DNA of 47,693 bases, taken from NCBI GenBank assembly GCA_947496065.1, contig CANMBF010000021.1, positions 1-47,693 on the forward strand, given 5' to 3'. The DNA comes from Bacteroidota bacterium. Lineage in GTDB: Bacteria > Bacteroidota > Bacteroidia > NS11-12g > UBA955. Made by a program: the position numbers and the translations under genes. Of the stretch, positions 15,545-35,253 are shown one piece after another. Numbering within the stretch: position 1 is the stretch's first letter; each line of letters starts with the position of its first letter. Below the pieces are notes generated by a model. It saw only the letters and a list, made by a program, of their open reading frames with translations. It was not told the origin of the DNA and made no database searches.

Positions 15545-15659
15545 TATCCCGAGGTTGAGCAATTGATTTCTAACATAATTTTTTGTTACCTTTTAGACTT
15601 AAAGACACGTTGTCAATTGCACACCTCGGGATTAGAAAGACTAAATTTTTTGCTATGCA
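15545..15659 (+). repeat. Hairpin repeat element, copy 1
   Basis: 115 bp, aligned without gaps to copy 2 at 15694-15808 with 6 mismatches. The ends pair: TCCCGAGGT (15547-15555) with ACCTCGGGA (15623-15631), then CAATTGA (15560-15566) with TCAATTG (15613-15619). An internal loop (TGAG opposite CAC) separates the two stems, and the apical loop is 46 nt (15567-15612). A diverged relative lies inverted at 35193-35247. Confidence 0.85.
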
Positions 15660-15693
15660 TTTTCAATAAACTCCTTCAAAATTAGAAACGACC

Positions 15694-15808
15694 TATCCCG
15701 AGGTAGAGCAATTGATTTCTAACATAACTCTTTGTTAACTTTTAGACTTAAAGACACGTTGTCAATTGCACACCTCGGGATTAGAAAGACTAATTTTTTT
15801 GCTACGCA
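15694..15808 (+). repeat. Hairpin repeat element, copy 2
   Basis: Second copy in the same orientation, offset by 149 bp. The stems are identical to copy 1, with AGAG instead of TGAG in the internal loop. Its right end (AGAAAGACT...TTTTTTGC) also pairs with the 3' end of the neighbouring gene. Confidence 0.85.
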
Positions 15809-15824
15809 AAAAATAAGTCTTTCT
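15783..15824. terminator. Long hairpin at the 3' end of the barrel gene
   Basis: AGAAAGACT...TTTTTTGC pairs with GCAAAAAA...AGTCTTTCT around a TAC loop, about 17 pairs with a small mismatch. Its left half belongs to repeat copy 2 and its right half abuts the stop codon at 15824. It may end or stabilise the minus-strand mRNA, although no T-run follows it. Confidence 0.5.
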
Positions 15825-18583
15825 TAATATGTATAATCAAATGCTTCTTCATCTCCACCCATTTTTTTGATTTTGTAAACCAAAGAAAGCATGAAGTATT
15901 GGGTGAGCTGATTGCTTTGGTCAATGTATATGTAATTATCGTTAACATAGCGACTGATAGAAGTATTCTGTTTTAGAATATCATAGGCACTAAGTTTCAC
16001 ATTAAATTTATCTTTTTTACCCAAAGGTTGCTGTAAGTATAAATTCCAAACTGTTACCACCTTACCAATGCCAGGCACTTTGCGTTGGTCGTTGAAATTT
16101 ATATTGGAATTTAATTCCATACCCCATTTGAACAAGGTTCTGATTGAAAAATTATAGCCAACTGTTGTTTGTTGGTAATTTAATTTTTCATTCAAATTGT
16201 TTTTAAAATTTTGGGCAAAGATATTTAAACTTGCGCCCGCTTCGAAACTGTCTTTGACTGTTAAGGTTAAACCAGGGTTGAGACCCCAATTGTTCATATC
16301 TGTAAACGCTTTTTGATTATTAAAAAAACTTGGCGAATGGCTGAATTGATTTGAAAAAGAGGAATTGAAAACCAAGTAATTGCTAATTTTTTTATCAAGG
16401 CCTGCCGATACCGTATAATTGCGCAAGCCTGTTTCATTAATTGGAGTGCTTTCCACAACCCCTTCGTTGTTAATTGAATTGGTATATATTTTTGAATTAT
16501 CTGAAAAACCAATGTCTCCCATTAAGTAGAGCGACTTAAACCATTTACGTTGCCGAATACTCATATAAGTGCTAGCCTTATATGTTTCTTGTGGCTGTAA
16601 ATTTTTATTTCCCGAATACCTTTGATAGTTATTGTTTAAATTTAACAAGGGCATCAAATCATTGCTGGTAGGAAATAGAATTGACTTTTCTAATTGCAAC
16701 GACATGTAGCCAAATTTCATCGCATTGTAACTTAGGGTAAGCGATGGCAATGCTTTCGGATACTGCTTAGGAATACTTATACCAGTGGCTTTGTTCACAT
16801 TGCTCATGTTCACCAACATGAAGGTGGTACCGACATTGAAATAAAATCCTTTTTTGTAATAACTGACATAAGGCCTTGCGGAATATTGTTCAATGCGGTT
16901 GGTGAAATCGATTGACAAGCTATCAATTTTCATTTGATAGGTTTTGTTAAAATTGACCGTTGACAATTGGTTATTGCCTTTGGTGAGTTGATTGTTGGCA
17001 TTGTTTTGCAACCAGCGCTCAGCCGATAAATTAAAACTCCAATGTTTGCTTAACGGCATCTGACCAAAAGCTTTGATCAAAAACTCTTGGCGATTAATGG
17101 CTTGCTGATTAAGGTTATTAAAAGTATCATTGGTATTTCTTAAGTATTGATATAAGAAATTATTATCCGTGTAGTTTCTGAAATTACTAGAAATGGAATA
17201 TCGGTAACGAATATCTTTGCGCCAATATTTTTCTAAAAAAGCAGTGGCTCTGAAATAGGTATTTTTAAAATTGCTTTTGAGTGCGTTGGACCCTCTATTA
17301 ATTTCTAAATTGTTAAAGCGAATGATATTGTCTTTGTTAGTTAAAAGCTCGTTTAAATCTAGAGAAGAGCGCACCCCCGTTTCGAATCTGAGTGTTGAGT
17401 CGCGCCTTTTGGTATAGCTTATTTGAGCCGAAGCAGAATACGCCAAGCCATTAATAAGATTACTATCAACATTGAATCTTCGGATGGAATCATTGAATGG
17501 ATTGCTACTATTAGAAGCCGAAATGGAATTAAATTTATTGCGATCGACTGAAAAGTTGATGGATAATTTGCGTTTGCGAGAAAACTCGTTAAAATAAGAA
17601 ATGCCAAGTCCTGCTTTGTTATTTAAATTGCCTTCATTGTTTGGTTTATCAAAGGTATTGCTCATGTAAAAAAACATATTATCACCAGTACCATTGCGCT
17701 CATCGTTTTGTGCACGGTGCCAATTATCGAAACCAAAGTCGAAGCCCGTTTCGTTGATATTATTGGCATTGCTGATAAATGAAATTTTTCTATCGTTTTT
17801 AAAACTGTTCAACCTTAAACCCGCTTCATATCTGCCTGCATTACCACCGCCCGCTAAAACATCGCCAAAGGTACCATTGCGTTTACCTTTCTTTAATTTG
17901 AGATTAATGATTTTGGTTTGTGTGGCCTTGGGTGAACCATCTTCATTTTTCTCTTCGAATACTTGAACAGTTTCTATCATATCGGCTGTTAAATTTTTTG
18001 AAACCATGCCGGGATTGTTGCCAAAAAAATCGGATCCATCCACCATGATCTTTTCTACTGCTGCACCATCTACTTTTATTTCGCCTTTGACATTCACTTC
18101 GAAGCCCGGTATTTTTTTGAAGAGTTGCGCAACATCACTACCCGGCAATACTTTAAAACGACTGGCATTAATTTCCATAGTATCGCCTTTCATGCGAATG
18201 GCCGCACCTCGCACTGAGTATGATTTAAAAGTATAATTCGCCGTGGCCAATTTAATTTCACCAAAATCATTGAACGACCATTCCCCACTCATCATGGGCA
18301 TACGCTTCACTTTTTCGCTAAAACCCACCATACTAAAAATAAGTACGATGGAATCTTGATTGGTTGTGTTCAATAAGAAATTACCATTGGGGGTGGTAAA
18401 ACCAAAGTTGATTAAACTGGTATCGCTTGATCTGTACAAACAAACCGAAACATCTCTTAGCGGCAATTGTGTAGCTGAATCGACGACACGGCCTTTAAAA
18501 CTGCGCACTATCTTTTGTGCATTGGCCTGATTAAACATGAGAATACAAAGAAAAAGAAATGCAGTTCGGATTAGTTGTTTCAT
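15824..18583 (-). CDS. Large outer-membrane beta-barrel protein (TonB-receptor-like, CarboxypepD-reg N-terminus)
   Basis: A 919-aa outer-membrane protein. It has a signal peptide (residues 1-23, ending ANAQ) and a carboxypeptidase-regulatory-like domain (about 28-110, GRVVDSATQLPLRDVSV). A plug-like domain follows (about 118-225, with LPGSDVAQLFKKIPGFEV and VDGSDFFGNNPG), then a long barrel rich in Asn, Ser, Tyr and Phe to the end (FDYTY). This matches the Bacteroidota outer-membrane barrel family related to TonB-dependent receptors. I see no classical TonB box. ATG 18583 gives the signal peptide; a further ATG five codons upstream is less likely. No SusD-like partner is adjacent, so the ligand cannot be guessed. 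Confidence 0.85.
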   Translation of the reverse strand: MKQLIRTAFLFLCILMFNQANAQKIVRSFKGRVVDSATQLPLRDVSVCLYRSSDTSLINFGFTTPNGNFLLNTTNQDSIVLIFSMVGFSEKVKRMPMMSGEWSFNDFGEIKLATANYTFKSYSVRGAAIRMKGDTMEINASRFKVLPGSDVAQLFKKIPGFEVNVKGEIKVDGAAVEKIMVDGSDFFGNNPGMVSKNLTADMIETVQVFEEKNEDGSPKATQTKIINLKLKKGKRNGTFGDVLAGGGNAGRYEAGLRLNSFKNDRKISFISNANNINETGFDFGFDNWHRAQNDERNGTGDNMFFYMSNTFDKPNNEGNLNNKAGLGISYFNEFSRKRKLSINFSVDRNKFNSISASNSSNPFNDSIRRFNVDSNLINGLAYSASAQISYTKRRDSTLRFETGVRSSLDLNELLTNKDNIIRFNNLEINRGSNALKSNFKNTYFRATAFLEKYWRKDIRYRYSISSNFRNYTDNNFLYQYLRNTNDTFNNLNQQAINRQEFLIKAFGQMPLSKHWSFNLSAERWLQNNANNQLTKGNNQLSTVNFNKTYQMKIDSLSIDFTNRIEQYSARPYVSYYKKGFYFNVGTTFMLVNMSNVNKATGISIPKQYPKALPSLTLSYNAMKFGYMSLQLEKSILFPTSNDLMPLLNLNNNYQRYSGNKNLQPQETYKASTYMSIRQRKWFKSLYLMGDIGFSDNSKIYTNSINNEGVVESTPINETGLRNYTVSAGLDKKISNYLVFNSSFSNQFSHSPSFFNNQKAFTDMNNWGLNPGLTLTVKDSFEAGASLNIFAQNFKNNLNEKLNYQQTTVGYNFSIRTLFKWGMELNSNINFNDQRKVPGIGKVVTVWNLYLQQPLGKKDKFNVKLSAYDILKQNTSISRYVNDNYIYIDQSNQLTQYFMLSLVYKIKKMGGDEEAFDYTY

Positions 18584-18768
18584 AACGAAGGGAAGCAATT
18601 TAAGTCATTAAAAAATTATAAACTTATTGATAGGGCCTTATATTGTAGAATGTGGAAAAATATTCGACGAAAATCAATTGTTCAATTGGTTTCAAATAAC
18701 AAAAATTCAAAGTTTATGCCGCACATTTGTGCCATGCGAATGCTCCTTTTATGATCGCAACTCAATCC

Positions 18769-19266
18769 ATGAACATCCATCTCGAAACCGAACGCTTGCT
18801 GCTTTCTCCTTTAACAGAGGCTGATACTTTATTCATTTATGAACTGCTGAACAGCAAAGCCTGGATTCGTTTTATTGGCGACAGAGATATTAATACATTT
18901 GATGATGCAGATGCTTACATCGATAAAATTTTATCGGGCAGAAATTTACAATATTGGATAGTGCGCGAAAAAGGAAAAGACAAACCGATTGGTTTGATTA
19001 CTTTTATGAAGCGCGCTTATCTCGACCATTGGGACCTTGGTTTTGCATTTTTGGAAAAGCATGGTAAAAAAGGTTACGCATTCGAAGCGACCGATGCTGT
19101 TTTAAAAACGGCTTTGCAATTGAAAGCTCATCCAATAATCGTTGCCACTACCCTACCCGACAATATTAATTCAATAAAGCTTTTAGAAAAATTAGGTTTT
19201 AAGTTCGATAAAAAAATGAAGGTAGAAAAAGACATGTTATCGATTTATACCACACAAAAGGATTAG
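18769..19266 (+). CDS. GNAT acetyltransferase (RimJ/RimL-like)
   Basis: A 165-aa N-acetyltransferase of the RimJ/RimL type. The start HLETERLLLSPLTEAD is the usual opening of the family. The acetyl-CoA loop is HGKKGYAFEATDAVL (near 102-116), and LPDNINSIKLLEKLGFKF (near 130-147) is the characteristic C-terminal motif. The substrate is unknown; relatives modify ribosomal protein N-termini, antibiotics or small molecules. ATG 18769 is chosen because it precedes the conserved opening directly; ATG 18751 and TTG- or GTG-like starts upstream are possible. Convergent with the phosphodiesterase gene, sharing a terminator. Confidence 0.88.
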   Translation: MNIHLETERLLLSPLTEADTLFIYELLNSKAWIRFIGDRDINTFDDADAYIDKILSGRNLQYWIVREKGKDKPIGLITFMKRAYLDHWDLGFAFLEKHGKKGYAFEATDAVLKTALQLKAHPIIVATTLPDNINSIKLLEKLGFKFDKKMKVEKDMLSIYTTQKD

Positions 19267-19274
19267 TGTTTTCT

Positions 19275-19302
19275 AAAAAACATACTAAGTGGTATGTTTT
19301 TT
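19275..19302. terminator. Bidirectional terminator, also related to the palindrome at 20866
   Basis: AAAAAACATAC/GTATGTTTTTT, an 11-bp perfect stem with A- and T-runs, between two convergent genes. Its core ACATAC...GTATGT matches the palindrome at 20871-20888 at 15 of 18 positions. Confidence 0.75.
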
Positions 19303-19305
19303 CTA

Positions 19306-19830
19306 TTACTTCTCAGGCACAATACCCGCGGTGCGTTTGCCCAATTCTATCACTGCTACATTTTTTATCTGACCCTTGTCTAACTCAAATTGCAACATTG
19401 TGCGCATCACATGAAAACCATGTCTGCCAGCCGCTCCAGGATTCATTACCAACATGTTCTTGTGGTTTTTATCGCGCATGACTCTTAAAATATGACTATG
19501 GCCGCAGATGAACACATCGGGGGTATCGCTTTTTAATTCGGGTAATAATTTAGGATTGTAATTGCCGGGGTAACCACCAATATGGGTCATCCATACCCTT
19601 ACCCCTTCGCATTCGAATAGGTTGTGCAAGGGATATCGATCGCGAATATCTTGCCCATCGATATTGCCCCACACACTGCGAATGGGCTTACCTGTTTGCT
19701 CAGCGATATCGCTTAAGGCCACCAAACCCCAGTCGCCCGCATGCCACAACTCGTCGGCAGCAGCAAAGTGTTTAATGATATCGGGCTCGATACAACTATG
19801 TGTATCACTTAACAATAATATTTTTTTCAA
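19306..19830 (-). CDS. Metallophosphoesterase (YfcE/MJ0936 family)
   Basis: Calcineurin-like phosphodiesterase of 174 aa. All metal-binding positions of the family are visible: Asp9 and His11 (SDTH), Asp33 (HAGDWG), Asn56 (WGNID), His83 (THIGG), and His111 with His113 (CGHSH). Relatives hydrolyse phosphodiesters such as 2',3'-cAMP or model compounds; the natural substrate is unknown. The start codon is TTG at 19830: no ATG lies in frame before the conserved KILLLSDTH. It is divergent from the rhomboid gene with 44 bp between starts. Confidence 0.9.
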   Translation of the reverse strand: MKKILLLSDTHSCIEPDIIKHFAAADELWHAGDWGLVALSDIAEQTGKPIRSVWGNIDGQDIRDRYPLHNLFECEGVRVWMTHIGGYPGNYNPKLLPELKSDTPDVFICGHSHILRVMRDKNHKNMLVMNPGAAGRHGFHVMRTMLQFELDKGQIKNVAVIELGKRTAGIVPEK

Positions 19831-19874
19831 AACACCACAAAATAATTCTTAATTTGTAAGATTAAAAAATATAA

Positions 19875-20483
19875 ATGTTAACCATTCTCATAATCGCCCT
19901 TACTGTTGTCATCAGCATGATTGCATTTGCGCAACACAACTTCTTCGACAAAGCGCGCTTTTATCCTTATTACATTCACCATAACAAAGAATACTGGCGT
20001 TGGATGAGTGGCGGATTTATTCATGCCGACTATTTTCACTTGGCCGTAAACATGTTGACACTTTATTTTTTCGGTCCTGTTGTGGAAGCCTATTTCACGC
20101 AATTATTTGGCGCGAATGGCTTATTCCTTTTCGGTGTGATGTATTTGTTAGCCATTCCTGTTAGCAGTATGTATTCCTATTACCGCCATCAAAACGACAT
20201 TGGCTATGCGGCCATTGGTGCATCGGGCGCAGTGTCTGCCATTCTCTTTAGTTCTATTTTGTTTGCCCCGTTAACGACTTTACAATTGTATTTTGCTATC
20301 CCAATTCCCGCTTGGTTGTTCGGCATACTCTATTTGTTTTATTCATGGAGCATGAGCAAAAAGCAGTTGGATAATATTGGTCACGATGCCCACTTCTTCG
20401 GAGCTTTGTTTGGTATCGTATTCACGATTCTCATAAAGCCAGACATTGTCTTGCATTTTATTTCGCAGTTTACTGGGAGATAA
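19875..20483 (+). CDS. Rhomboid family intramembrane serine protease
   Basis: A 202-aa inner-membrane protease with six predicted spans that cleaves within or next to membrane segments of its substrates. The catalytic dyad is visible: Ser117 in GASGAVSA and His173 in GHDAHFFGALFG. The conserved HADYFHLAVNM (His50, His55, Asn59) in the second span is also present. So the protein should be active, unlike inactive pseudoproteases. Its physiological substrates are unknown. It ends only 6 bp before the convergent small gene at 20490, with no terminator between. TTAATTTG, close to a -7 box, lies about 20 nt before the ATG. Confidence 0.93.
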   Translation: MLTILIIALTVVISMIAFAQHNFFDKARFYPYYIHHNKEYWRWMSGGFIHADYFHLAVNMLTLYFFGPVVEAYFTQLFGANGLFLFGVMYLLAIPVSSMYSYYRHQNDIGYAAIGASGAVSAILFSSILFAPLTTLQLYFAIPIPAWLFGILYLFYSWSMSKKQLDNIGHDAHFFGALFGIVFTILIKPDIVLHFISQFTGR

Positions 20484-20489
20484 AAGCCA

Positions 20490-20780
20490 TTAAATATCTA
20501 ATCTGAAAGTGGCCATTACCTTGCCATCTGTCGATTTGATGATTAAATTACCACCGCTTTTTAAACTAAAATTTAATTGAAGATCAGCATCCTTGGTCTT
20601 GTATTTTTCTAGACCCGTCATGCTGCCATTTTCGCTGTCCTTTGATTCGACAATAACGTTGTAGGTAAATCTTGGATAGATATAATTAAACAGGTAAGTA
20701 TTTATTTGATCTTTTGCTTCCCTAATCTCTAACATTTCGCCAGTACTGGTCTCTGTCCATTTCCCCACTAAATTTTTCAT
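20490..20780 (-). CDS. Small beta-rich cytosolic protein, unknown
   Basis: A 96-aa protein without a signal peptide. It starts MKNLVGKWTETSTGEMLEI, reminiscent of the GxW opening of lipocalin-like domains, and alternates short beta-type segments with charged turns (YNVIVESKDSENG, LQLNFSLKSGG, LIIKSTDGK). It is too short for a complete lipocalin barrel. Family not recognised. ATG 20780 is used; a TTG at 20786 would lie inside the promoter box. TATCTTTG ends 3 nt before the ATG, so the mRNA is probably leaderless. It is divergent from the DUF853 ATPase, with a perfect palindrome between them. Confidence 0.7.
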   Translation of the reverse strand: MKNLVGKWTETSTGEMLEIREAKDQINTYLFNYIYPRFTYNVIVESKDSENGSMTGLEKYKTKDADLQLNFSLKSGGNLIIKSTDGKVMATFRLDI

Positions 20781-20783
20781 AGT

Positions 20784-20791
20784 CAAAGATA
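20784..20791 (-). promoter_or_regulatory. -7 promoter box 3 nt before an ATG
   Basis: TATCTTTG on the minus strand, exact match to TANNTTTG, with only ACT between it and the ATG at 20780. Transcription would begin at or next to the start codon. Confidence 0.55.
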
Positions 20792-20865
20792 GGGCTTTTA
20801 AAGGAGGATAGGTTGTTTGATGCTTTTATAAAGCCTTTATAATAAATGAGTCAACTATCACTTAC

Positions 20866-20893
20866 AATAAACATACCAGTTGGTATGTTTATT
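20866..20893. promoter_or_regulatory. Perfect palindrome, TetR-type operator candidate
   Basis: AATAAACATACC, AGTT, then GGTATGTTTATT: 12 bp per arm with no mismatch. It sits between divergent genes (20490-20780 and 21005-22561) with no T-run after it, so it looks more like an operator than a terminator. The core ACATACC-N4-GGTATGT resembles operators of TetR-family repressors. No such regulator is in the window. Confidence 0.45.
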
Positions 20894-21004
20894 AAATAAT
20901 CCTCCAAGCGACCAACTATTTATTCAAAACGGGTGAATATCTCATTCATAAACCATTTGAATATCACCATCAATTCAATTAATTTCGCAAAAATAATTAC
21001 AAAT

Positions 21005-22561
21005 ATGCCGACCAAAAACGATTTAAAAGTACTCGTAGATTCTGCCTTCAATTTTTCAGGGGATAGTGTTGTTTTGGGCACCGCCAAATTAGGTGAAGAA
21101 ATTCTTGAGAACACTTTGGTTAAAATTCCATTGAAAACCTTTAACCGACATGGTTTAATTGCTGGTGCCACTGGTACTGGTAAAACCAAAACCTTACAGA
21201 ACATTGCTGAGAAATTATCTTCACATGGAGTGCCGACTTTGTTGATGGATATCAAAGGTGACTTAAGCGGTATCAGTCAAGCGGGCACTAGCAATCCTAA
21301 AATTGAAGAACGCCATGGCAAAATAGGAATTCAATGGGAAGCCAAAGGATTTCCGACTGAACTACTTTCGATATCGGGCGAAAAAGGTGTGCGTTTGAGG
21401 GCCACTATTTCTGAATTCGGTCCTGTATTGCTCTCTAAAATTTTAGAAATCAACGATACACAAAGTGGTGTATTGAGTTTAATATTTAAATACTGTGATG
21501 ACAATAAAATGCCTTTGTTGGACATTAAAGATTTAAGAAAAATTTGCCAATACATACAAACAGATGAAGGCAAAGACGAGGTTGAAAAAAATTACGGATT
21601 GGTAAGTTCCGCTTCGGTAGGTGCTATCCTCCGCAACTTATTAGAAATAGAACAACAAGGCGCTGATGTATTTTTTGGAGAACGCAGTTTCGATGTAAAT
21701 GATTTATTGCGAAGAGACAGCAATGGCAATGGGTATTGCAATATTTTGCGTTTGGCCGATTTGCAAAGTAAACCCAAATTGTTCTCAACATTTATGTTGT
21801 GCTTGTTAGCAGAGATATACGCTACTTTTAATGAGCGTGGCGATATGGACAAACCACAATTGTGTATCTTTATTGATGAAGCGCATTTGATTTTTAACGA
21901 AGCTTCAAAAGCTTTATTAGATCAAATTACCACCATCGTTAAGCTCATACGTTCAAAAGGTGTGGGCTTATTTTTTATCACCCAAGACCCAACCGATGTA
22001 CCCGAAGATGTTTTAGGACAATTGGGTATGAAAATGCAACATGCATTAAGAGCGTTTACAGAAAAAGACAGGAAAGCCATCAAAACAATTGCAGAAAATT
22101 TTCCGACTTCCGATTTTTATAAAACATCCGATTTATTAACGGCATTGGGCATTGGCGAAGCATTGGTAACTGTACTAAACGAAAAAGGCATTCCTACCCC
22201 ACTCGTGCATACTTATCTTACAGCACCTCAGAGCAGAATGGACATTATCAGTCCTACAGAAATGGATGCATTGGTAAGTCAGTCGCAATTGGTGCGTATC
22301 TACAACGAAGAATTGGATCGTGAATCGGCTTTTGAAATATTAACGAAAAAACTCGAGGCACACGAACAAGCTGCGAAAGAAGAAGCCGAAGCCAAGGCCG
22401 AAGCAAAAGAAGAAAAGAAAGCCAGCCATGAACCATCAACGGTCGAAAAAGTTTTGAATAACAGCGTTACTAAAATTGTGATTCGCGAAGTGGCGCGTGG
22501 TTTATTAGGTGTTCTTGGTATTAAATCAGGCACACGTAAAAAATCCAATTCATGGTTCTAA
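21005..22561 (+). CDS. HerA-like P-loop ATPase, DUF853 (YjgR-like)
   Basis: A 518-aa ATPase of the HerA/FtsK superfamily, most like the DUF853 (YjgR) family. The P-loop GATGTGKT is at 54-61 and Walker B LCIFIDEAHLIF near 286-297. FFITQDPTDVPEDVLGQLG (near 320) is the sensor-like stretch of the family. A Lys/Glu/Ala-rich helical segment lies near 450-475, followed by a basic tail. Homologues are widespread but their role is unproven; DNA translocation is an inference from the fold. ATG 21005 sits just before the conserved LVDSAFNFSGDSVVLG; a GTG at 20933 would add 24 residues. A 152-aa gene starts 10 bp after its stop. Confidence 0.9.
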   Translation: MPTKNDLKVLVDSAFNFSGDSVVLGTAKLGEEILENTLVKIPLKTFNRHGLIAGATGTGKTKTLQNIAEKLSSHGVPTLLMDIKGDLSGISQAGTSNPKIEERHGKIGIQWEAKGFPTELLSISGEKGVRLRATISEFGPVLLSKILEINDTQSGVLSLIFKYCDDNKMPLLDIKDLRKICQYIQTDEGKDEVEKNYGLVSSASVGAILRNLLEIEQQGADVFFGERSFDVNDLLRRDSNGNGYCNILRLADLQSKPKLFSTFMLCLLAEIYATFNERGDMDKPQLCIFIDEAHLIFNEASKALLDQITTIVKLIRSKGVGLFFITQDPTDVPEDVLGQLGMKMQHALRAFTEKDRKAIKTIAENFPTSDFYKTSDLLTALGIGEALVTVLNEKGIPTPLVHTYLTAPQSRMDIISPTEMDALVSQSQLVRIYNEELDRESAFEILTKKLEAHEQAAKEEAEAKAEAKEEKKASHEPSTVEKVLNNSVTKIVIREVARGLLGVLGIKSGTRKKSNSWF

Positions 22562-22571
22562 TAATCAATCA

Positions 22572-23030: not shown

Positions 23031-23060
23031 ACACTGTAGAACATTTGGAATAAAACAGCA

Positions 23061-27738: not shown

Positions 27739-27770
27739 CCCACAATGCAATTGCCAATATTAACAGTATG

Positions 27771-28784
27771 CCATTAAATTCAGACACCCCCATTATATTG
27801 GCCATCGAAACATCGTGCGATGATACTGCCGCAGCGGTACTCTACAATGGCAAAATGCTTGCCAATATTGTGGCCACGCAAAAAATCCATGAACAATACG
27901 GCGGCGTAATACCCGAGCTTGCAAGCAGAGCGCACCAACAAAATATTGTTCCGGTCGTTCAAGCGGCCTTAGACAAGGCCGGTAAAACAATTTCAGAACT
28001 TTCTGCTATTGCTTATACGCAAGGACCAGGTTTAATTGGTTCATTGTTAGTAGGTGCTCAATTTGCTAAAGGTTTATCACTTGCGCTGAATATCCCAACC
28101 ATTGGTGTTAATCATTTACATGCCCATATTGGCGCCCATTATTTAAATGAGTATCCACCAAAATTTCCCTTTTTATGTCTCTTGGTTTCTGGTGGTCATA
28201 CCCAAATTGTAAAAGTGAATAGTCACTTAGAAATGGAAATTATAGGCTCTACAATTGATGATGCCGCAGGAGAGGCATTCGACAAAGCCGCTAAAATGAT
28301 AGGTTTACCTTATCCAGGTGGTCCATTAATCGATCAATATGCCATGCTGGGCAATCCATTGGCTTATCCTTTCCCAATTGCCAAATTAGCCGGTTACGAC
28401 TATAGTTTTAGTGGATTAAAAACATCCATCTTATATTTTCTACAAAAACGAAGGACTTTAGATGTTCATTTTATTGAAAACAATAGGAATGATATCTGCG
28501 CTAGTATTCGCTATACCATTATTAAAACCTTGTTGCAAACACTCGAACGTGCCGCCGACGATTTGAATATACAAGAGATAGGTATAGCGGGAGGTGTAAG
28601 CGCCAACAGTTTATTGCGTGATGAATTAACAAAACTAGGTATTAAAAAACAATGGAAAACACATATACCAGCCTTTGAATATTGCACAGATAATGCTGGA
28701 ATGATTGGCATTCTAGGGCACTACCAATATCTAAGTGGTGATTTTGCAAATATCAATGCCAAGCCTTTTGCACGTGGACATTAA
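27771..28784 (+). CDS. tsaD: tRNA N6-adenosine threonylcarbamoyltransferase
   Basis: Catalytic subunit of the t6A37 tRNA modification system (337 aa). It transfers threonylcarbamoyl from TC-AMP to A37 of ANN-decoding tRNAs, with TsaB and TsaE. Motifs: ILAIETSCDDTAAAV at 10-24, the metal-binding HLHAH (His116, His120), LLVSGGHTQI near 142, GEAFDKAAKMIGLPYPGGP near 170, and GGVSANSLLRDEL and CTDNAGMIG near the C-terminus. ATG 27771 directly precedes the conserved core; an earlier ATG at 27702 would overlap the start of the divergent TamB-like gene. Confidence 0.97.
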   Translation, partial: PLNSDTPIILAIETSCDDTAAAVLYNGKMLANIVATQKIHEQYGGVIPELASRAHQQNIVPVVQAALDKAGKTISELSAIAYTQGPGLIGSLLVGAQFAKGLSLALNIPTIGVNHLHAHIGAHYLNEYPPKFPFLCLLVSGGHTQIVKVNSHLEMEIIGSTIDDAAGEAFDKAAKMIGLPYPGGPLIDQYAMLGNPLAYPFPIAKLAGYDYSFSGLKTSILYFLQKRRTLDVHFIENNRNDICASIRYTIIKTLLQTLERAADDLNIQEIGIAGGVSANSLLRDELTKLGIKKQWKTHIPAFEYCTDNAGMIGILGHYQYLSGDFANINAKPFARGH

Positions 28785-28923
28785 TTTGTTGTTATCATTC
28801 AACATAGCATTTTTAAGTTACACACTTTCGTATTCGAGAGAAACACTTTTATCGAAGATAAAAATTACTTTGTCATAATTTAAAACAATTCAGCGGTTTA
28901 GTGGTTAAAATTGCAACTCTTTT

Positions 28924-31287
28924 ATGAAAAAGTACTTTTTAATCTCTATCTTCTCCTTACTATTTCTTCAATTATCGGCACAAAACAAAGTTACGCTGAG
29001 TGGTTATGTGAAAGACTCTGCCAATGGTGAGGCGCTTAATTCGTGTAATATTTTTATTGAAGAACCTAAAGTAGGCACCCAATCCAATGCTTACGGATTC
29101 TATTCATTATCGCTTGAACCTGGCACCTATATTTTTAATTTTTCTTTTGTTGGCTACAATACCAAAAGTATTAACGTCAATATTACAAAAAATACAACCC
29201 TTAACATGGAACTTAACAAAGTGCTTGCACAATTTGGCGCTGTTACTTTAAGGGGAAAGAAAAAAGATAACAATGTAGAAAAGGTTGAAATGAGTGTCAA
29301 CAATTTGAACATTGCACAAATCAAAAAAATCCCTGCCTTGCTTGGTGAGGTTGATGTGGTTAAAAGCATTCAATTACTACCGGGTGTCAGCACCGTTGGC
29401 GAGGGTGCTACAGGCTTTAATGTGCGGGGAGGAAGTATTGATCAGAATTTAATCTTATTAGATGAAGCGCCCGTGTTTAACTCTTCTCACTTGTTTGGGT
29501 TCTTCTCTATATTTAACCCCGATGCAGTTAAAGATGTCAAATTAATCAAAGGCGGTATGCCCGCAACTTACGGTGGCCGTTTATCTTCAACCCTCGATGT
29601 GAGGATGAAAGAGGGCAATAGTAAAAGAACCGAAGTCAATGGTGGTATCGGTGTTATCTTTAGTCGCCTTTCGATTGAAGGACCTATTATGCCAAAACGT
29701 TTAAACAATAAGGCCTCATATATTATAGCAGGTAGAAGAAGTTATATTGATGTGTTGGCAAAACCATTTACAAAAAAGAATGAAAGTTTAAAAGACGCCA
29801 TTTTTTATTTCTATGATTTCACAGCAAAAGTTAACTATACTTTTAACGCCAATAATAAGGTATTTGTATCTGGCTATTTAGGACGCGATGCCTTTGGAGT
29901 GCCCAATGCTAAATTTGATTGGGGCAACACCACGGCCACAGTGCGTTGGAATCACTTATTCTCTAAAAAATTATTTACCAATTTCACTACCTATTATAGT
30001 AAATATGATTACAGTCTAGGATTTGGAAGCGACAACAGCTCATTTAGATGGAAATCAGATATTGTAAATTTCAGTGTAAAACCAGACTTCACTTATTATA
30101 TCACCCCTAAGAATACACTTAATTTTGGCGCTATTTCAACCTATTATATATTCAGTCCGGGCAAAGCAACTTCAAAAGATTTAACATCAACTGTAGAATT
30201 CGGTTTACCTAAAAAATATGCTATGGAGAATGCCCTATTTATTGAGAACGAACAGAAGGTTAGCGATAAATTAACCATACGTTATGGCATAAGGGTTTCT
30301 AACTTTAATTATTTAGGCAAAGGCAGTGCATTGCAATTGCAACGTGACATTGCGGGCAAACGCGCTGAAGTATTGGGAATAAAAACCTACGAAGACATGG
30401 ATGTCATCAAATCCTATATTACACCTGAGCCGCGTTTCTCATTGAATTATAAATACAATAAATTAACTGCTTTAAAATTGAGCTACAACCGCATGGCGCA
30501 ATATCTGCATTTAATTTCGAATACAGCAGCTAGTGTTCCATTGGATGTTTGGACACCAAGTACCAATAATATTAAACCTCAAATAGCCGACCAAGTGGCC
30601 ATTGGTTATTTCAAAAACTTTGGCAAGAATATCGATTACGAAATTTCAATCGAATCGTATTACAAAGAAATGCAAAATCAAATCGACTATATTGATGGTG
30701 CAGACTTATTGTTGAACTCGCAATTGGAAGCCGATCTGTTGAATGGAAAAGGACGTGCTTACGGACTAGAAATTTACGCCAAGAAAAATGTCGGAAAATT
30801 AAATGGGTGGGTTTCTTATACCCTTGCTAAATCAGAAAGAAAAGTTGAGGGCATCAGTCACAATGAATGGTATGCCAACCGTTTCGACCGTCGCCATAAT
30901 CTTAATGTAACGGGCAGTTATGACATCAGCAAAAAATGGTCGGCCTCTGCAAGTTTTGTTTTTGGCACAGGTACGCCTACTAACTTACCGAATACTAAAT
31001 ACAGTTTCCAAGGCATACAAGGCATCCCACAAAATGCAAGTGAATTGAGAAATAATGTGCGCATTAAACCATTCCACCGCTTGGATTTATCGGCTACCTA
31101 CATTTATAAAAAAACGGCCAAATGGGAAAGCAGTTGGGTCGTAGGCGTATACAACGTTTACAAACGCAGAAATCCATTCTCCTATTACAGCCAACCCAAT
31201 CCAAACAACAATTTTGAAACCCAATTGATTCGCTATTCTGTTATTGGTTCAATTGTCCCTTCAGTATCTTGGAACTTTAAATTTTAA
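28924..31287 (+). CDS. TonB-dependent receptor with CarboxypepD-reg domain
   Basis: A 787-aa outer-membrane receptor. It has a signal peptide (1-20, ending LSAQ), a carboxypeptidase-regulatory-like domain (about 23-105, LSGYVKDSANGEALNSCNIFI), and a plug domain (about 125-230, with GFNVRGGSIDQNLILLDEAPVFN and GGMPATYGGR). The C-terminal barrel ends NFKF. Such receptors take up large or scarce substrates using TonB energy. It is followed after 5 bp by a DUF4249 lipoprotein, a pairing often seen in Bacteroidota and thought to be a receptor with its surface lipoprotein. The ligand is unknown. Confidence 0.92.
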   Translation: MKKYFLISIFSLLFLQLSAQNKVTLSGYVKDSANGEALNSCNIFIEEPKVGTQSNAYGFYSLSLEPGTYIFNFSFVGYNTKSINVNITKNTTLNMELNKVLAQFGAVTLRGKKKDNNVEKVEMSVNNLNIAQIKKIPALLGEVDVVKSIQLLPGVSTVGEGATGFNVRGGSIDQNLILLDEAPVFNSSHLFGFFSIFNPDAVKDVKLIKGGMPATYGGRLSSTLDVRMKEGNSKRTEVNGGIGVIFSRLSIEGPIMPKRLNNKASYIIAGRRSYIDVLAKPFTKKNESLKDAIFYFYDFTAKVNYTFNANNKVFVSGYLGRDAFGVPNAKFDWGNTTATVRWNHLFSKKLFTNFTTYYSKYDYSLGFGSDNSSFRWKSDIVNFSVKPDFTYYITPKNTLNFGAISTYYIFSPGKATSKDLTSTVEFGLPKKYAMENALFIENEQKVSDKLTIRYGIRVSNFNYLGKGSALQLQRDIAGKRAEVLGIKTYEDMDVIKSYITPEPRFSLNYKYNKLTALKLSYNRMAQYLHLISNTAASVPLDVWTPSTNNIKPQIADQVAIGYFKNFGKNIDYEISIESYYKEMQNQIDYIDGADLLLNSQLEADLLNGKGRAYGLEIYAKKNVGKLNGWVSYTLAKSERKVEGISHNEWYANRFDRRHNLNVTGSYDISKKWSASASFVFGTGTPTNLPNTKYSFQGIQGIPQNASELRNNVRIKPFHRLDLSATYIYKKTAKWESSWVVGVYNVYKRRNPFSYYSQPNPNNNFETQLIRYSVIGSIVPSVSWNFKF

Positions 31288-31292
31288 TCAAC

Positions 31293-32183
31293 ATGCAACT
31301 ATTTAATCAAATCTTTAAAAATACAAAATTCACAATTCTTGCAATTGCCATTTTTGCTGGCTTAACCGCTTGTGAAGATCCTATAGAGCTCGATTTAGGA
31401 AAACCAGTTGAGCAGCTCGTAATCGACGCTGTGATTGATCAAACAACCGACACCCAATACATTTATATTTCTAAATCTGTTGGCTATTTAGATAATGGTG
31501 TCGCCAAAGGCTATCAAATTGATACTGTTGGTATTTTAGATACATCAAGCTTCACCTTTTATCCTTTTAAATATGCTGGCAATGGAAAATATTTCTTTGT
31601 ACCACCGAGTGCCAATACTTTTCAATTCGATAAAGACTATCAATTAATTTGCAAGGATGGGGTTAATACCTTTGTATCGCAAAGTCGTTTGAATTCACCA
31701 ACTACCATAGATTCACTAACCTATAAGTATGAGCCTTTGGGGGCATTCGGCGGTAATAAAGGCAATTACATAACACTATGGTCGAAGGATAAAATAGGCA
31801 AAGGTGATTTTTATTGGTTGCGTTTATACCGCAACGACTCCATTCAATTACAAGCAGGTGATATAAGAGTTGGTATCGATAATTCTGTATCACAAGGTGG
31901 CGAAGGCGATGGCAATTTATTCATTGTGCCATTGCGTGGCAATTTCACCAGTCGCCCTTGGAACATAGGCGAAACCGCAAGAATAGAAGTATTCACCATC
32001 ACACCTGAAATGTATTTTTACTTGAATTTATTAACGACTCAGTTACAGAACACTGGTTTGTTTGCTGTGCCACCAAGCAATGTGCCAAGCAATATAATTT
32101 GCACCAACAATCCAGAGAACAAGGCATTGGGATTCTTTTGCATGGTTGGAAAGGTTGAGAGTCCTACCCTTTTGATTAAATAA
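31293..32183 (+). CDS. DUF4249 domain lipoprotein
   Basis: A 296-aa lipoprotein: signal sequence with lipobox GLTAC (Cys27), then CEDPIELDLG and LVIDAVIDQTTDTQYIYISKS, the typical opening of DUF4249. After the Cys come acidic residues (Glu-Asp), which in Bacteroidota can favour export to the cell surface. The gene starts 5 bp after the TonB receptor and should be co-transcribed with it; family context suggests an accessory surface lipoprotein for that receptor. Biochemical role unknown. Confidence 0.88.
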   Translation: MQLFNQIFKNTKFTILAIAIFAGLTACEDPIELDLGKPVEQLVIDAVIDQTTDTQYIYISKSVGYLDNGVAKGYQIDTVGILDTSSFTFYPFKYAGNGKYFFVPPSANTFQFDKDYQLICKDGVNTFVSQSRLNSPTTIDSLTYKYEPLGAFGGNKGNYITLWSKDKIGKGDFYWLRLYRNDSIQLQAGDIRVGIDNSVSQGGEGDGNLFIVPLRGNFTSRPWNIGETARIEVFTITPEMYFYLNLLTTQLQNTGLFAVPPSNVPSNIICTNNPENKALGFFCMVGKVESPTLLIK

Positions 32184-32222
32184 GGTCAAGATTCTTTTTT
32201 AATAAATTAACTCAAATATTTG

Positions 32223-32230
32223 TAGTTTTG
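32223..32230 (+). promoter_or_regulatory. -7 promoter box before the PagL-like gene
   Basis: TAGTTTTG, an exact TANNTTTG match, ends 7 nt before the GTG start at 32238, which implies a nearly leaderless mRNA. No TTG -33 element at the usual spacing. Confidence 0.45.
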
Positions 32231-32237
32231 TCAATCG

Positions 32238-33335
32238 GTGAGAAAACTAGCCATTGTCCTATATTGTTGTTTCAGTTTGTTTCAAGCAAGCGCTCAATTT
32301 CAACGCGGATTTCAAATTAATTTATTACCAGGGTTTTTAATCGCACACCGCGAATACATGGCCAACATGGAGGCGCATACCATGGGATTCGAGGCCATCT
32401 ACAGCAGTAATTTCACAGCATGGAAACAAGTTGATTCGGCCTATAAAAATTTACGTTGGGGCACTGGTTTTACCTATTTTAATTTAGGCAACAGCGATTT
32501 AAATGGCGATGTATTGGCGTGGCATATGCATATTGAAGCCAATTTAATGAACAGAAATAATTTCCAAAGCACCTTGCGATTCGGATCAGGTGTTGGCTAT
32601 TTAACCAAGCCTTACGACTTGCAAACCAACAGAAAAAACAAAGCGATAGGTTCGCACTTTAATGGCAATATACAATTAATGTACAAGGCCTATTTTAAAG
32701 TATCTGCAAACAATTCTTTGATATTAGGTACTGGTGTAACACATTATAGCAATGGCAATTTTAAACGCCCGAATTTAGGCATCAACATTGCACATTTAAA
32801 TTTAGGATGGTACCATAATTTGTATAGTATTGAACAACCTAAGTTCAAACCATTGCCGCGCTTATTTCCAAAGAATGGATTTGAAATAAATGCGGGTATT
32901 GCGAATAAACAAATTGCTGTTGCTGACACCCGCAGATTCACCATTTTATCTAGCAGTTTACTGTATTATTTCCAACACAACAAAACCCGCAATTGGCGCG
33001 TAGGTACTGAGTTTTTCTTTGATAAAACCTATCCCTATGAATTGTTTCATCCTGAAACTTTAACCCATGTTAAATTAGCGAAAATGACTGAGGTCGCTGT
33101 CAAAGTAGGCCATGAATTTGTATTTGGCAGAATCGCCATTGTCTCCGATTTGGGCACCTATGTTTACCGCCCAAATCAATACAAGAAACGTGTTTATTTT
33201 GCCATAGGCTTTAATTACTTTTTCAACAAAGGCATTGTTGCGCAAACGCGTTTAAAGTCGCACATGGCAGTGGCAGATTTCTTTTATTGGAGCGGTGGCT
33301 ACCGTTTTTCAGATGAATTTTTACGCAAACAATGA
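32238..33335 (+). CDS. Acyloxyacyl hydrolase / PagL-like lipid A deacylase
   Basis: A 365-aa outer-membrane barrel protein with a signal peptide (1-20, LFQASAQ). Residues 164-176 read GTGVTHYSNGNFK, matching the PagL HxSN motif whose His (here 169) and Ser (171) are catalytic. PagL enzymes remove the 3-O-acyl chain of lipid A in the outer leaflet; the acidic third residue was not located with certainty. The protein is roughly twice the length of PagL, with an additional C-terminal half (about 210-365) that also looks like beta barrel. GTG is the only start that places the signal peptide correctly. The next gene overlaps by ATGA. Confidence 0.8.
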   Translation: MRKLAIVLYCCFSLFQASAQFQRGFQINLLPGFLIAHREYMANMEAHTMGFEAIYSSNFTAWKQVDSAYKNLRWGTGFTYFNLGNSDLNGDVLAWHMHIEANLMNRNNFQSTLRFGSGVGYLTKPYDLQTNRKNKAIGSHFNGNIQLMYKAYFKVSANNSLILGTGVTHYSNGNFKRPNLGINIAHLNLGWYHNLYSIEQPKFKPLPRLFPKNGFEINAGIANKQIAVADTRRFTILSSSLLYYFQHNKTRNWRVGTEFFFDKTYPYELFHPETLTHVKLAKMTEVAVKVGHEFVFGRIAIVSDLGTYVYRPNQYKKRVYFAIGFNYFFNKGIVAQTRLKSHMAVADFFYWSGGYRFSDEFLRKQ

Positions 33336-34063
33336 AGCAGATTATTTACATATTGAGCGTGGTGGTTTTATTGGGTGCTTGTAAAAGGGCCGATGATTTG
33401 GTAACAGCTTATGGCAATGATGTTGAGCAAGTACGACAGGTTGGAAATTTCAGAGCCATTTCTGCTGGCGAGAAATTTGACATTGTTTTAGTGCAAGATT
33501 CTGCCTTGGCAGGTACTTTAAAAATGACCGCTGGCAGTCATGTAATTAATGGCTATGTGAGTGAAGTTAGAAATGGTGTTTTGGTTTTAGAAAACATTAA
33601 TAAGTACAATTGGGTACGCAAATTAAAGGTAAGACAGAAAGCCATTGTTTATTTTAAAAACTTAGACAGTTTATCGATACGCGGCTCCGCAAAATTTACT
33701 AGTAAAAATGCCATTGTTCAACACAATGAACTCAAAATCATTCACAATGGATTGGAGGACCTAGAGCTCACCATTTTTACAAATGATGTCAATGTAAGGG
33801 GCGAAAACACGGGCGGTATTATCTTACATGGCAAATGCAATATCTACAGAGGCAATGCCGATGATATTAGTTTTGTTGACAATCGCGATTTAATTACAGA
33901 CGATACTTATTTTAATAGCTTTAGTCAGGAAGACAGTTATGTGAATGCCAAAAATATTTTGGGATTGAAAGTATTTGGAAGCGGCAATATTTATTACTTA
34001 AGTTCGCCTACTAATAAAAGTTCGTTCGAGCGTTTTGGCAAGGGCGATATCATCAAGAAATAA
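33332..34063 (+). CDS. GIN-domain (DUF2807) lipoprotein
   Basis: A 243-aa lipoprotein with lipobox LLGAC (Cys17). The body is a right-handed beta-helix-like GIN (DUF2807) domain: VRQVGNFRAISAGEKFDIVLVQD is its usual opening, and later come LSIRGSAKFTSKN, ELTIFTNDVNVRG and GLKVFGSGNIYYL. Function is unknown; such proteins are common in Bacteroidota envelopes and may bind polysaccharide. It overlaps the PagL-like gene by four bases (ATGA), which signals translational coupling, and ends before a strong terminator. Confidence 0.88.
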   Translation: MKQIIYILSVVVLLGACKRADDLVTAYGNDVEQVRQVGNFRAISAGEKFDIVLVQDSALAGTLKMTAGSHVINGYVSEVRNGVLVLENINKYNWVRKLKVRQKAIVYFKNLDSLSIRGSAKFTSKNAIVQHNELKIIHNGLEDLELTIFTNDVNVRGENTGGIILHGKCNIYRGNADDISFVDNRDLITDDTYFNSFSQEDSYVNAKNILGLKVFGSGNIYYLSSPTNKSSFERFGKGDIIKK

Positions 34064-34085
34064 TTATAAAAAAATTGGACACAAA

Positions 34086-34113
34086 AAAACACGATTCAAA
34101 TGAATCGTGTTTT
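34086..34113. terminator. Bidirectional terminator between GIN and RRM genes
   Basis: 12-bp perfect stem AAAACACGATTC/GAATCGTGTTTT with a 4-nt loop and A/T runs on both sides; the genes converge on it. Confidence 0.9.
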
Positions 34114-34133
34114 ATAATTAAAATTGGTTTTGA

Positions 34134-34469
34134 TTAATATCTTTTGTTGTAACCACCAGAGTTTCCTCCTCCACCGCCGTTACCACCACGGTTAAAACCT
34201 CCACCACCACGGTTTCCACCATTGTCTTCTCTTGGACGTGCTTCGTTTACAACTAGCGCTCTTTCCATAAATTCTTTCTCATGTAAAGCAGCAATGGCAG
34301 CATTTGCAGCTGAATCATCACTCATCTCTACAATCGCAAATCCGCGTGAACGGTTTGTGAATTTGTCTTTAATAATTCTTGCTGAGCTCACTTCACCATA
34401 CTGAGTGAAAAGGTTTTCGACATCTTGCTCGCTCGCTTTGAAGCTAAGATTACCTACGTAAATGTTCAT
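34134..34469 (-). CDS. RRM-type RNA-binding protein with Gly-rich tail
   Basis: A 111-aa protein with a single RNA recognition motif. RNP2 is IYVGNL (3-8) and RNP1 RGFAIVEM (42-49), with Ile where an aromatic residue is most usual in the fifth RNP1 position. The C-terminal 30 residues are almost all Gly, Asn and Arg (about 82-108), the arrangement of bacterial RRM/glycine-rich proteins implicated in RNA chaperoning and cold response. It has a longer leader (about 50 nt) than the other genes in this window, consistent with post-transcriptional control, although no known thermosensor was recognised. Confidence 0.93.
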   Translation of the reverse strand: MNIYVGNLSFKASEQDVENLFTQYGEVSSARIIKDKFTNRSRGFAIVEMSDDSAANAAIAALHEKEFMERALVVNEARPREDNGGNRGGGGFNRGGNGGGGGNSGGYNKRY

Positions 34470-34521
34470 TATATCTAAATTTTTTTAAATCGTAATCCGT
34501 TATAAATAATGGAATACTTAA

Positions 34522-34529
34522 CAAAGATA
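34522..34529 (-). promoter_or_regulatory. -7 promoter box of the RRM gene
   Basis: TATCTTTG on the minus strand, 52 nt before the ATG. An AT-rich stretch including a run of ten T lies at the -33 side. Confidence 0.55.
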
Positions 34530-34603
34530 AACTATTATTATTTAAAAAAAAAATATTTGTCGAAAGCTTTATTTTACTTACTTTTGCAACTCTTTAAAAA
34601 GTA

Positions 34604-34677
34604 GGGCCCGTAGCTTAATTGGATAGAGCACCTGACTACGGATCAGGAGGTTGGGGGTTCGACTCCCTTCGAGCCCA
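34604..34677 (+). tRNA. tRNA-Arg (anticodon ACG)
   Basis: Full cloverleaf: acceptor GGGCCCG/CGAGCCC, D-arm GCTT/GAGC, anticodon arm CCTGA/TCAGG with ACG in the loop, T-arm GGGGG/CCCTT with loop TTCGACT, discriminator A. CCA is not encoded. One acceptor pair (5:68) is C opposite A; the usual sequence in relatives would be CGGGCCC. The anticodon reads CGN arginine codons after A-to-I editing. Confidence 0.93.
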
Positions 34678-34753
34678 CCCCGTGTCAGAAAAACCCTGAA
34701 ATTACACTTCAGGGTTTTTTTATGCACTTTCGGCAGGGTTTTACGACACGGGG
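34678..34753 (+). terminator. tRNA terminator nested in a larger inverted repeat
   Basis: The inner hairpin AAAAACCCTGAA/TTCAGGGTTTTT (34689-34719) followed by T is the tRNA terminator. It is enclosed by CCCCGTGTC (34678-34686) and GACACGGGG (34745-34753), a perfect 9-bp outer stem. A further CACGGG/CCCGTG pair (34748-34764) could compete with the outer stem. Confidence 0.7.
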
Positions 34754-34846
34754 TGTGACCCGTGATGTGACTGGAATGAAATGGAGGTCTCTATCATGGG
34801 TCCACTTTTTTTTTAGTAATTTCAATTATCTTGCTAGTCTAAAACT

Positions 34847-35146
34847 ATGAATCTATTGCCTTTTGCAGTCTATGTTCTTTTTAGCGAGAAAGACCATCAA
34901 TTATATGTTGGATTTACTACAGATATAAATAAGCGAATTGATAACCATAATGATGGTGGAACCACAAGTACAAGGCATCGAAGACCTTTAAAGCTTATTT
35001 TCATTGAATACTACTTATTTAAAGAAGATGCTATATACAGAGAAAAGTATTTTAAATCTTCTAAAGGAAAACGGGCATTAAAATTAATGCTAAATTTCAC
35101 TTTGAACACATTAGGGTATAAAATGCCTGAAGACTTAAATTCTTAA
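34847..35146 (+). CDS. Small GIY-YIG nuclease domain protein
   Basis: A 99-aa protein consisting of a single GIY-YIG domain (UPF0213/YhbQ-like): VYV at 8-10, YVG at 20-22, the conserved Arg30 in NKRI and a Glu near 66 in YREKYF. All positions needed for nuclease chemistry are present. Function of these short orphan proteins is unknown; many copies per genome are typical in Bacteroidota. It lies between tRNA-Arg with its hairpin and a cluster of three hairpins, and has its own terminator. Confidence 0.88.
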   Translation: MNLLPFAVYVLFSEKDHQLYVGFTTDINKRIDNHNDGGTTSTRHRRPLKLIFIEYYLFKEDAIYREKYFKSSKGKRALKLMLNFTLNTLGYKMPEDLNS

Positions 35147-35158
35147 AAAGGGTTCGAC

Positions 35159-35185
35159 AATCCCGCCCTATGGCGGGATTTTTTG
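35159..35185 (+). terminator. Terminator of the GIY-YIG gene
   Basis: AATCCCGCC/GGCGGGATT, a perfect 9-bp stem with a CTAT loop and a T-run. The stretch just before it (GGGTTCGAC at 35150) repeats nine bases of the tRNA-Arg T-arm. Confidence 0.85.
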
Positions 35186-35192
35186 TTTTAGT

Positions 35193-35247
35193 TATCCCGT
35201 ATTGTGTGCAAACCGCCAAAGGCGGAGTTGAACTCTAATACGGGATA
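35193..35247 (-). repeat. Diverged inverted copy of the 15.5-kb hairpin repeat
   Basis: TATCCCGTATT (35193-35203) pairs with AATACGGGATA (35237-35247), enclosing an inner AACCGCC/GGCGG-GTT hairpin. Read on the minus strand it shares TATCCCG, GAG and TTGCACAC...CGGGAT with the elements at 15545 and 15694. The basal stem is TATT/AATA here instead of AGGT/ACCT. Confidence 0.6.
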
Positions 35248-35253
35248 GGGCAG

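Follow-up and report, generated by a model that had tools for sequence, protein, structure and literature searches.

Short hairpin repeats and elements that settle at tRNA genes have been described in several forms. Repetitive extragenic palindromic (REP) sequences and their paired form, REPINs, are short imperfect hairpins of high copy number that occur as inverted pairs, form genus-level families and are accompanied by a Y1 transposase, RAYT (TnpA-REP). Integrative elements and tycheposons insert at the 3' end of tRNA genes, leave the tRNA intact and carry a tRNA-end-like repeat on their far side, and integron cassettes are small units in tandem with recombination-site-like ends and structured hairpins. 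Palindromic repeats with a CGTC tag are reported also from Bacteroidetes and have no dedicated transposase (PMC3733652). The phage enzyme SegB, a free-standing GIY-YIG homing endonuclease, is reported to cut in tRNA genes, with the motif RAWTSGAAC at 23 of 83 sites (PMC13096335). Here we analyse a family of structured hairpins found in a 47,693-nt stretch of DNA (the window) from a Bacteroidota bacterium (GCA_947496065.1), namely contig C21 (CANMBF010000021.1) of a 2.9-Mb assembly.

We estimate at roughly 0.6 the probability that these hairpins are parts of genus-level short mobile cassettes that lie behind many tRNA genes and the transfer-messenger RNA (tmRNA) gene, with homing of a GIY-YIG nuclease at the tRNA T-loop as the favoured route of movement. 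Judged by comparison between genomes, the anatomy of the cassettes, the covariation, the target and the exchange between loci can be regarded as established; the moving enzyme is unproven. Like REPs, the hairpins are short, imperfect, numerous and in part paired in inverted orientation within a genus-level family, but they come without a GTAG or GTGG tag or a linked Y1 gene, their partner being a GIY-YIG gene and their target the 3' end of tRNA and tmRNA genes. They resemble the CGTC-tagged repeats in being palindromic, in their Bacteroidetes host and in having no dedicated transposase (PMC3733652), but they lack the CGTC tag. As with SegB, a nuclease gene lies beside tRNA genes, and by our own reading the reverse complement of the SegB motif, GTTCSAWTY, would fit the T-loop (PMC13096335); here, in contrast, the hosts are bacterial genomes and the unit is a short cassette with structured hairpins, a terminator and a mimic of the tRNA end. 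Integrative elements and tycheposons share the insertion at the tRNA 3' end, the intact tRNA and the far-side repeat, whereas these cassettes measure about 150-500 bp, use many tRNAs plus tmRNA as a single family, form arrays and showed no recombinase in those read. The arrays, each unit ending in a recombination-site-like sequence, and the structured hairpins are integron-like, but the anchor is a tRNA gene and no integrase was seen in the cassettes read. A description of this hairpin or cassette family was not found in the open-licence literature, judged by titles and the starts of abstracts.

A sequence-only reading of the window had proposed a hairpin repeat with two tandem 115-nt copies, six mismatches apart and gap-free (C1, 15545-15659; C2, 15694-15808), and a third, inverted copy (C3, 35193-35247), with basal pairs AGGT/ACCT in C1 and C2 and TATT/AATA in C3. 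All of this was borne out, C3 belonging to the same hairpin family. Two further copies, HP1 and HP2, occupy 34678-34801, with a tRNA-Arg gene on one side and a GIY-YIG gene on the other, giving five in the window. The features are listed below with scores from two covariance models: R1, with its alignment A2, was built from 14 seed hairpins, two of them from the window (HP2 and C3), and R2 was built from 107 copies, C3 included, and run over the whole window with filters off.

15545..15634 (model match 15547-15631), minus strand: C1, stand-alone hairpin with a long apical part (R2 14.9 bits, E 0.095; R1 15.8 bits)
15694..15783 (model match 15696-15780), minus strand: C2, tandem copy of C1 (R2 25.8 bits, E 1.2e-4; R1 22.7 bits)
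34604..34679, plus strand: tRNA-Arg(acg) gene, the target, 5' of the cassettes (ARAGORN; Rfam RF00005)
34678..34753, minus strand: HP1, reverse hairpin abutting the last tRNA base (R1 29.0 bits; R2 30.1 bits, E 8e-6)
34758..34801, plus strand: HP2, forward hairpin, stem-GTG...CTCT-stem (R1 56.9 bits, R1 seed; R2 53.0 bits, E 6.5e-12)
34847..35146, plus strand: free-standing GIY-YIG nuclease gene, 99 aa (Pfam PF01541, E 3e-14, 53.4 bits against a cut-off of 22.6; alignment A4)
35152..35159, plus strand: remnant GTTCGACA of a 27-nt tRNA-3'-end mimic, remainder missing (comparison with loci L110, L125 and L202)
35159..35184, plus strand: terminator-like hairpin with T run, second cassette (sequence; same segment behind tRNA-Met in L113 and L186)
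35193..35247 (model match 35195-35245, in the plus orientation of the family), plus strand: HP3, the same as C3 (R1 42.4 bits, R1 seed; R2 34.6 bits forward, E 5e-7, against 14.4 reverse)
35251..35286, plus strand: probably what is left of a third cassette, AGAAAAAGCTCGG... terminator, resembling the left part of HP1 in L018 (by eye)

The copies follow a common plan of stem, GTG, apical hairpin, CTCT and stem, which on the other strand reads stem-(A/T)GAG...CAC-stem, the motif seen in the sequence-only reading. The conserved GAG and CAC form G-C, A.A and G-C plus one bulged base, adjoining the basal stem. The proposal that the internal-loop bases are kept stands for GAG and CAC; the shared TTGCACAC, on the other hand, sits in a different structural register in C1 and C2 than in C3, offset by two, so that its identity is partly incidental. 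Against shuffled sequences C1, C2 and C3 fold with z of -5.5 to -6.7. By the models C2 and C3 appear as clear family members. C1 is a weak match by its own score (E 0.095), and its membership rests mainly on its being a 95% copy of C2; neither C1 nor C2 was recovered by the model search with default filters. We consider it improbable that C1 and C2 resemble C3 by chance and that C3 is the sole family member of the three. The low score of C1, the shifted register of TTGCACAC and the lack of an adjoining tRNA at C1 and C2 would fit such a coincidence, but C2 carries the full GTG/CTCT core at E 1.2e-4. In genome G014 the interval between miaA and the outer-membrane gene is without C1 and C2.

Scans with the exact C1/C3 string were unproductive, the pattern being over-strict and partly in the wrong structural register. 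Across 197 relatives it gave three matches, of which only C3 was judged real, and in the genome_contigs collection, which may omit the window's own genome, it gave one stretch, in Sphaerimonospora, taken as chance. The family is visible only to a structure-aware search. With R1 at E<=0.001 and stricter filters, 137 matches were found in 14 of 17 same-genus genomes (own genome included; 1-41 each) and none in 90 other relatives, 107 genomes in all; G001, G002 and G016 are the members of the genus with no hairpin match at this threshold. The window's own genome has nine R1 matches at E<=1; with laxer searches HP1 behind two tRNAs, C1 and C2 also appear, for a total of 13. Together these genome searches comprise 1256 genome look-ups, repeats counted; the model E-values are rough, and many of the genomes are fragmented or incomplete. 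Rfam, run over the whole window at gathering score, returned tRNA only, and the hairpins match no Rfam family; the sequence-only reading had likewise recognised no described family. In a class-wide draw of 395 genomes (E<=1e-4) matches occurred only in the own genome and in G217, a distant genome of another family. G217 holds nine same-plan hairpins, seven on contig C19 and two on C35 (L214, L215), mostly GC-rich. In G004 we also observed a subfamily of the type CCATATAGCGTG...CTCTGCTATGTGG. Its copies are tandem and separated by TTATTGGTTTA in L118 and L129, and L119, L128 and L131 have one each.

The further copies allowed the pairing to be compared. Although the basal pairs of A2 were selected by a scan that demanded basal pairing, the apical pairs of the 14 seeds were free of such selection and covary as well. 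In 107 matches (97 distinct rows) standard pairs fill 96.2% of the pair cells, against 37-49% with the partners slid; both-sided changes occur in 14 of the 16 pairs among the 97 distinct copies, with a covariation score of 0.592, compared with 0.230 for shuffles and at most 0.112 on sliding, figures that lean towards the model to which the alignment was fitted. Compensatory changes above both controls are what a structured RNA or single-stranded DNA element would show. The wobble pairs differ between the strands. On the GTG...CTCT strand, 1044 stem cells from 116 distinct stems hold 70 G.T and 14 A.C, where independence predicts 145 and 100. The depletion is much stronger for A.C, the pair that would be a wobble on the other strand, so it is the GTG...CTCT strand that would fold single-stranded; we infer that this fold is what selection acts on, with the caveat that the model tolerates G.U.

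To locate the hairpins, 106 regions were fetched for 139 matches outside the window contig, along with two stretches of the window contig and two of G217. At E<=0.01 these sequences contain 181 matches, of which eight under 40 nt had been omitted from the wobble-pair count. With G217 excluded, the matches group into 111 clusters; a tRNA or tmRNA gene ends no more than 100 nt before the hairpins in 39 of them and no more than 300 nt before in 45. By ARAGORN the 39 cases span 13 kinds, the tRNA-Leu in L147 being probably a decayed copy of tRNA-Val. As a control, 24 same-genus loci fetched for other genes (87.6 kb) contained no tRNA and no hairpin (E<=0.01). At the high end, all clusters are tRNA-linked in G011 (5/5), G003 (3/3) and G008 (3/3); at the low end the proportions are 3/34 in G009, 2/15 in G004 and 0/10 in G007. 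Among the targets seen, tRNA and tmRNA 3' ends are the most frequent.

Behind the tRNA the cassettes have two layouts. In type A, HP1 follows directly, in reverse orientation and with the terminator inside, then comes the forward HP2 77-82 nt behind the tRNA and sometimes a GIY-YIG gene. Type B has, after the tRNA, a terminator in an inverted repeat such as ACAAAAAC...GTTTTTGT and then the forward hairpin, 45-50 nt behind the tRNA (61 in L195). At a few loci the forward hairpin is 75-78 nt out, preceded by a segment that resembles HP1 but receives no model score. Of the hairpins that come closest to a tRNA, at up to 100 nt, 30 are forward and nine are reverse HP1.

At the right end we observed, past the hairpin or past the GIY-YIG gene, a 27-nt sequence, GTTCGACA-N15-C(C/T)AC, that resembles a tRNA from the T-loop to the CCA. 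The strict pattern of this mimic finds 18 sites, against none in either the reversed or the complemented control, and a weight matrix made from 18 such sequences finds 31 sites in 271 kb (12 of them non-seed), against one in each control. The mimic starts 70-86 nt (mostly 74-78) past the start of the preceding hairpin, and counted from its own start the next forward hairpin lies at +72 to +74 in type B and +105 to +107 in type A, with HP1, where scored, at +26. Cassettes in tandem occur in L191, L198, L204, L125 and L195. The insertion, exactly at the tRNA 3' end and with a tRNA-end-like repeat on the far side, has the arrangement known from tRNA-integrating elements of tyrosine recombinases. 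In viral contigs the mimic pattern was not found. Among the 395 class genomes, with up to two mismatches, it gave 16 matches in 13 genomes, against eight (counted by eye) for the reversed control; one is in the own genome, seven are scattered, at background level, and eight fall in five genomes of one genus, g33 of family f11. The g33 sites (L236-L240, L243-L245, L246-L253) are dispersed and show the mimic, mostly GTTCGACATTTGTCCGGTTGGCTCCAC, followed by a terminator.

In the window, the apical part of HP1 contains a terminator-like hairpin and T run. The mimic there is truncated, and the full motif was not found in the window at up to three mismatches. A comparison based on lolD was made for an empty site of this tRNA-Arg, but the neighbourhood is not conserved, hence no comparison was obtained. 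Elsewhere in the window, palindromic repeats of the type ACATACnnnnnnGGTATGTTT stand at 19269-19302, 20860-20893 and 36716-36749, 74-79% identical to the reference copy.

Loci with orthologous flanks could be compared at tRNA-Phe (G000, G010, G015), tRNA-Arg-acg (G003, G012, G015) and tRNA-Met (G011, G004, G014). Matching tRNA loci of sister species align over 0.7-1.2 kb, and where the cassettes differ the alignment ends at the last tRNA base, give or take one; between species that share a cassette type it continues into the cassette. At tRNA-Met, G004 has type B and G014 type A with a GIY-YIG gene, and homology resumes at the mimic and the terminator that follows it, so that both boundaries of the exchanged unit are visible. 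Near-identical stretches also recur behind different tRNAs. Over 107 nt the sequence after tRNA-Arg of G010 matches that after tRNA-Ala of G015 at 99% identity, against 74% between these two genomes at their tRNA-Phe locus. In G003 tRNA-Val and tRNA-Arg are followed by the same 101 nt, but one of the two copies lies at a contig end and an assembly effect is possible. In six hairpins, all of them in G009, a second hairpin is nested at one and the same point of the loop, its left end being CCTG or CATG; these were first noticed by eye and the search pattern was written to fit them, so that it gives no independent test of the site. The proposal of a structured, covarying mobile element thus gains support from the covariation, the further genomic copies, whose basal stems pair, and the cassette differences at matching tRNA loci. 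Neither of the two outcomes that the sequence-only reading had named as refuting it was seen.

These differences also bear on whether the hairpins might instead serve the host as functional RNA or as regulatory elements, for instance in insulation or in the processing of tRNA 3' ends, and have spread by ordinary duplication with no mobile element involved. The strong covariation, the constant orientation and the regular spacing behind tRNAs would suit such a role. However, the hairpins differ between matching tRNA loci, nest inside one another and were not found in three genomes of the genus, and behind tRNAs they usually follow a terminator-like hairpin (by eye), which probably places them outside the tRNA transcript. 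We regard a host function of this kind as unlikely to be the explanation.

The sequence-only reading had compared the repeat with REP/RAYT systems, and this comparison did not hold up. The hairpins do show the REP hallmark of many short imperfect hairpins partly in inverted pairs (137 matches in 14 genomes; HP1/HP2). A REP family moved by a Y1 transposase could account for the mismatched and bulged hairpins, the REPIN-like HP1/HP2 pairs and the strand-asymmetric wobbles (70 G.T against 14 A.C cells), and Y1 matches occur in 12 of the 17 genus genomes; a Bacteroidetes subclass of RAYTs is described as having atypical flanking structures and may dispense with GTAG (PMC6006769). Yet GT[AG]G stands within 6 nt upstream of just 3 of 178 hairpins with full flanks, three of the 181 having been dropped for short flanks, and downstream, on the other strand, of 20 of 178; the corresponding counts for CGTC are 0 and 2 of 178. 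No Y1 match was found in hairpin-bearing G003, G005 and G010 (82-90% complete) or G007 (98%), while hairpin-free G002 has one. Of 25 Y1 matches 24 were examined, and a hairpin lay in the fetched stretch of one (G009 contig 133). That Y1 gene (L224, 1270-2140) has three CCCCn2-4GGGG palindromes on each side and TTTGTAG nearby, apparently a separate REP-like family. Movement of the hairpins as REPs by a Y1 transposase is therefore largely refuted, and we give it very little credence.

The gene found in the cassettes points to a different partner. The window protein keeps Y9, Y20, G22, R30, H34 and E66, which we take to be the GIY-YIG catalytic residues, and agrees with the curated description of the domain; these residues are invariant in seven close and two distant proteins (alignment A4). 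The own genome has a second copy, 91% identical, behind tRNA-Phe, and the close homologues of sister species sit mostly behind other tRNAs or tmRNA, surrounded by same-plan hairpins. Nine of the 14 hairpin genomes have close homologues (>=60% identity), the three hairpin-free ones none. Hairpins adjoin the copy read in each of the nine, and upstream of it stands a tRNA or tmRNA in eight and a mimic in G004; in G006 the gene runs off the end of its contig. In viral contigs, two stretches matched the pattern of the GIY-YIG protein and neither was confirmed. A second type of GIY-YIG element was observed behind tRNA-Leu, tRNA-Ala and tRNA-Val (L009 1345-1860, L133 738-1250, L147 1201-1703). Its protein in L009 is 33% identical to that of the window, and on its far side lies a long, degraded copy of the 3' half of the tRNA, as if the tRNA end had been displaced.

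A cassette starts at the last tRNA base and consists of a terminator in an inverted repeat, a forward hairpin, sometimes a GIY-YIG gene, and the mimic. For its movement we propose the following. The tRNA would be left intact, and the inserted terminator would let it still end properly. The GIY-YIG enzyme may cut unoccupied tRNA genes at the universal T-loop, and the break may be repaired from a cassette whose two flanks both resemble a tRNA 3' end. Cassettes that lack the gene would be mobilised in trans, and scattered lone hairpins, C1 and C2 among them, would be derivatives. A tentative extension, to which we assign less than even odds, is a self-spreading tRNA-anchored system in which the enzyme reads the universal T-loop and could target any tRNA or tmRNA gene, every new cassette supplies a terminator, a structured hairpin and a decoy tRNA end that offers the next landing site, and integron-like arrays grow with no integrase.

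Several observations weigh against GIY-YIG homing as the general account. No excision, cleavage or transposition was observed, the evidence being a comparison of sequences. Clusters with no tRNA within 100 nt make up 72 of the 111 (31/34 in G009, 13/15 in G004, 10/10 in G007), and R1 was seeded from GIY-YIG and tRNA loci and may favour tRNA-linked subtypes. G003, G005, G007, G009 (41 matches) and G010 carry hairpins with no close GIY-YIG homologue found, and the gene is interrupted in G004, in G013 and in one copy of G014. The mimic is 2 nt longer than a genuine tRNA end by standard numbering. No tRNA was found in the fetched G217 stretches that hold hairpins, and neither tRNA nor hairpin near the g33 mimic sites.

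The main rival is a tyrosine recombinase encoded elsewhere that moves the cassettes as non-autonomous satellites, with the tRNA 3' end as attB, the mimic as a displaced or hybrid right site and the GIY-YIG gene as cargo. Insertion at a tRNA 3' end with direct-repeat-like ends is the classical layout of tyrosine-recombinase elements, and the five hairpin genomes with no close GIY-YIG homologue would be readily accommodated. A single recombinase would, however, need to accept about 12 tRNA kinds plus tmRNA, which to our knowledge is unusual, and the mimic has a constant altered T-loop unlike the local tRNA sequence. No recombinase was seen in the cassettes read, where only GIY-YIG was looked for, and recombinases were not searched for anywhere. 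We consider this rival rather unlikely, and GIY-YIG homing on the tRNA T-loop remains the preferred reading.

If this reading is true, the cassettes would add a further hairpin-linked mobile unit, with a GIY-YIG partner, to RAYT/REP and IS200/IS605, and would account for the ability of a single small element to find a safe harbour at almost any tRNA or tmRNA gene. Whether a small bacterial GIY-YIG protein cuts tRNA genes at their T-loop, which for the phage enzyme is suggested by the SegB motif (PMC13096335), becomes a testable question. The same tRNA loci, occupied by different cassettes across sister species, would provide a clean comparative system.

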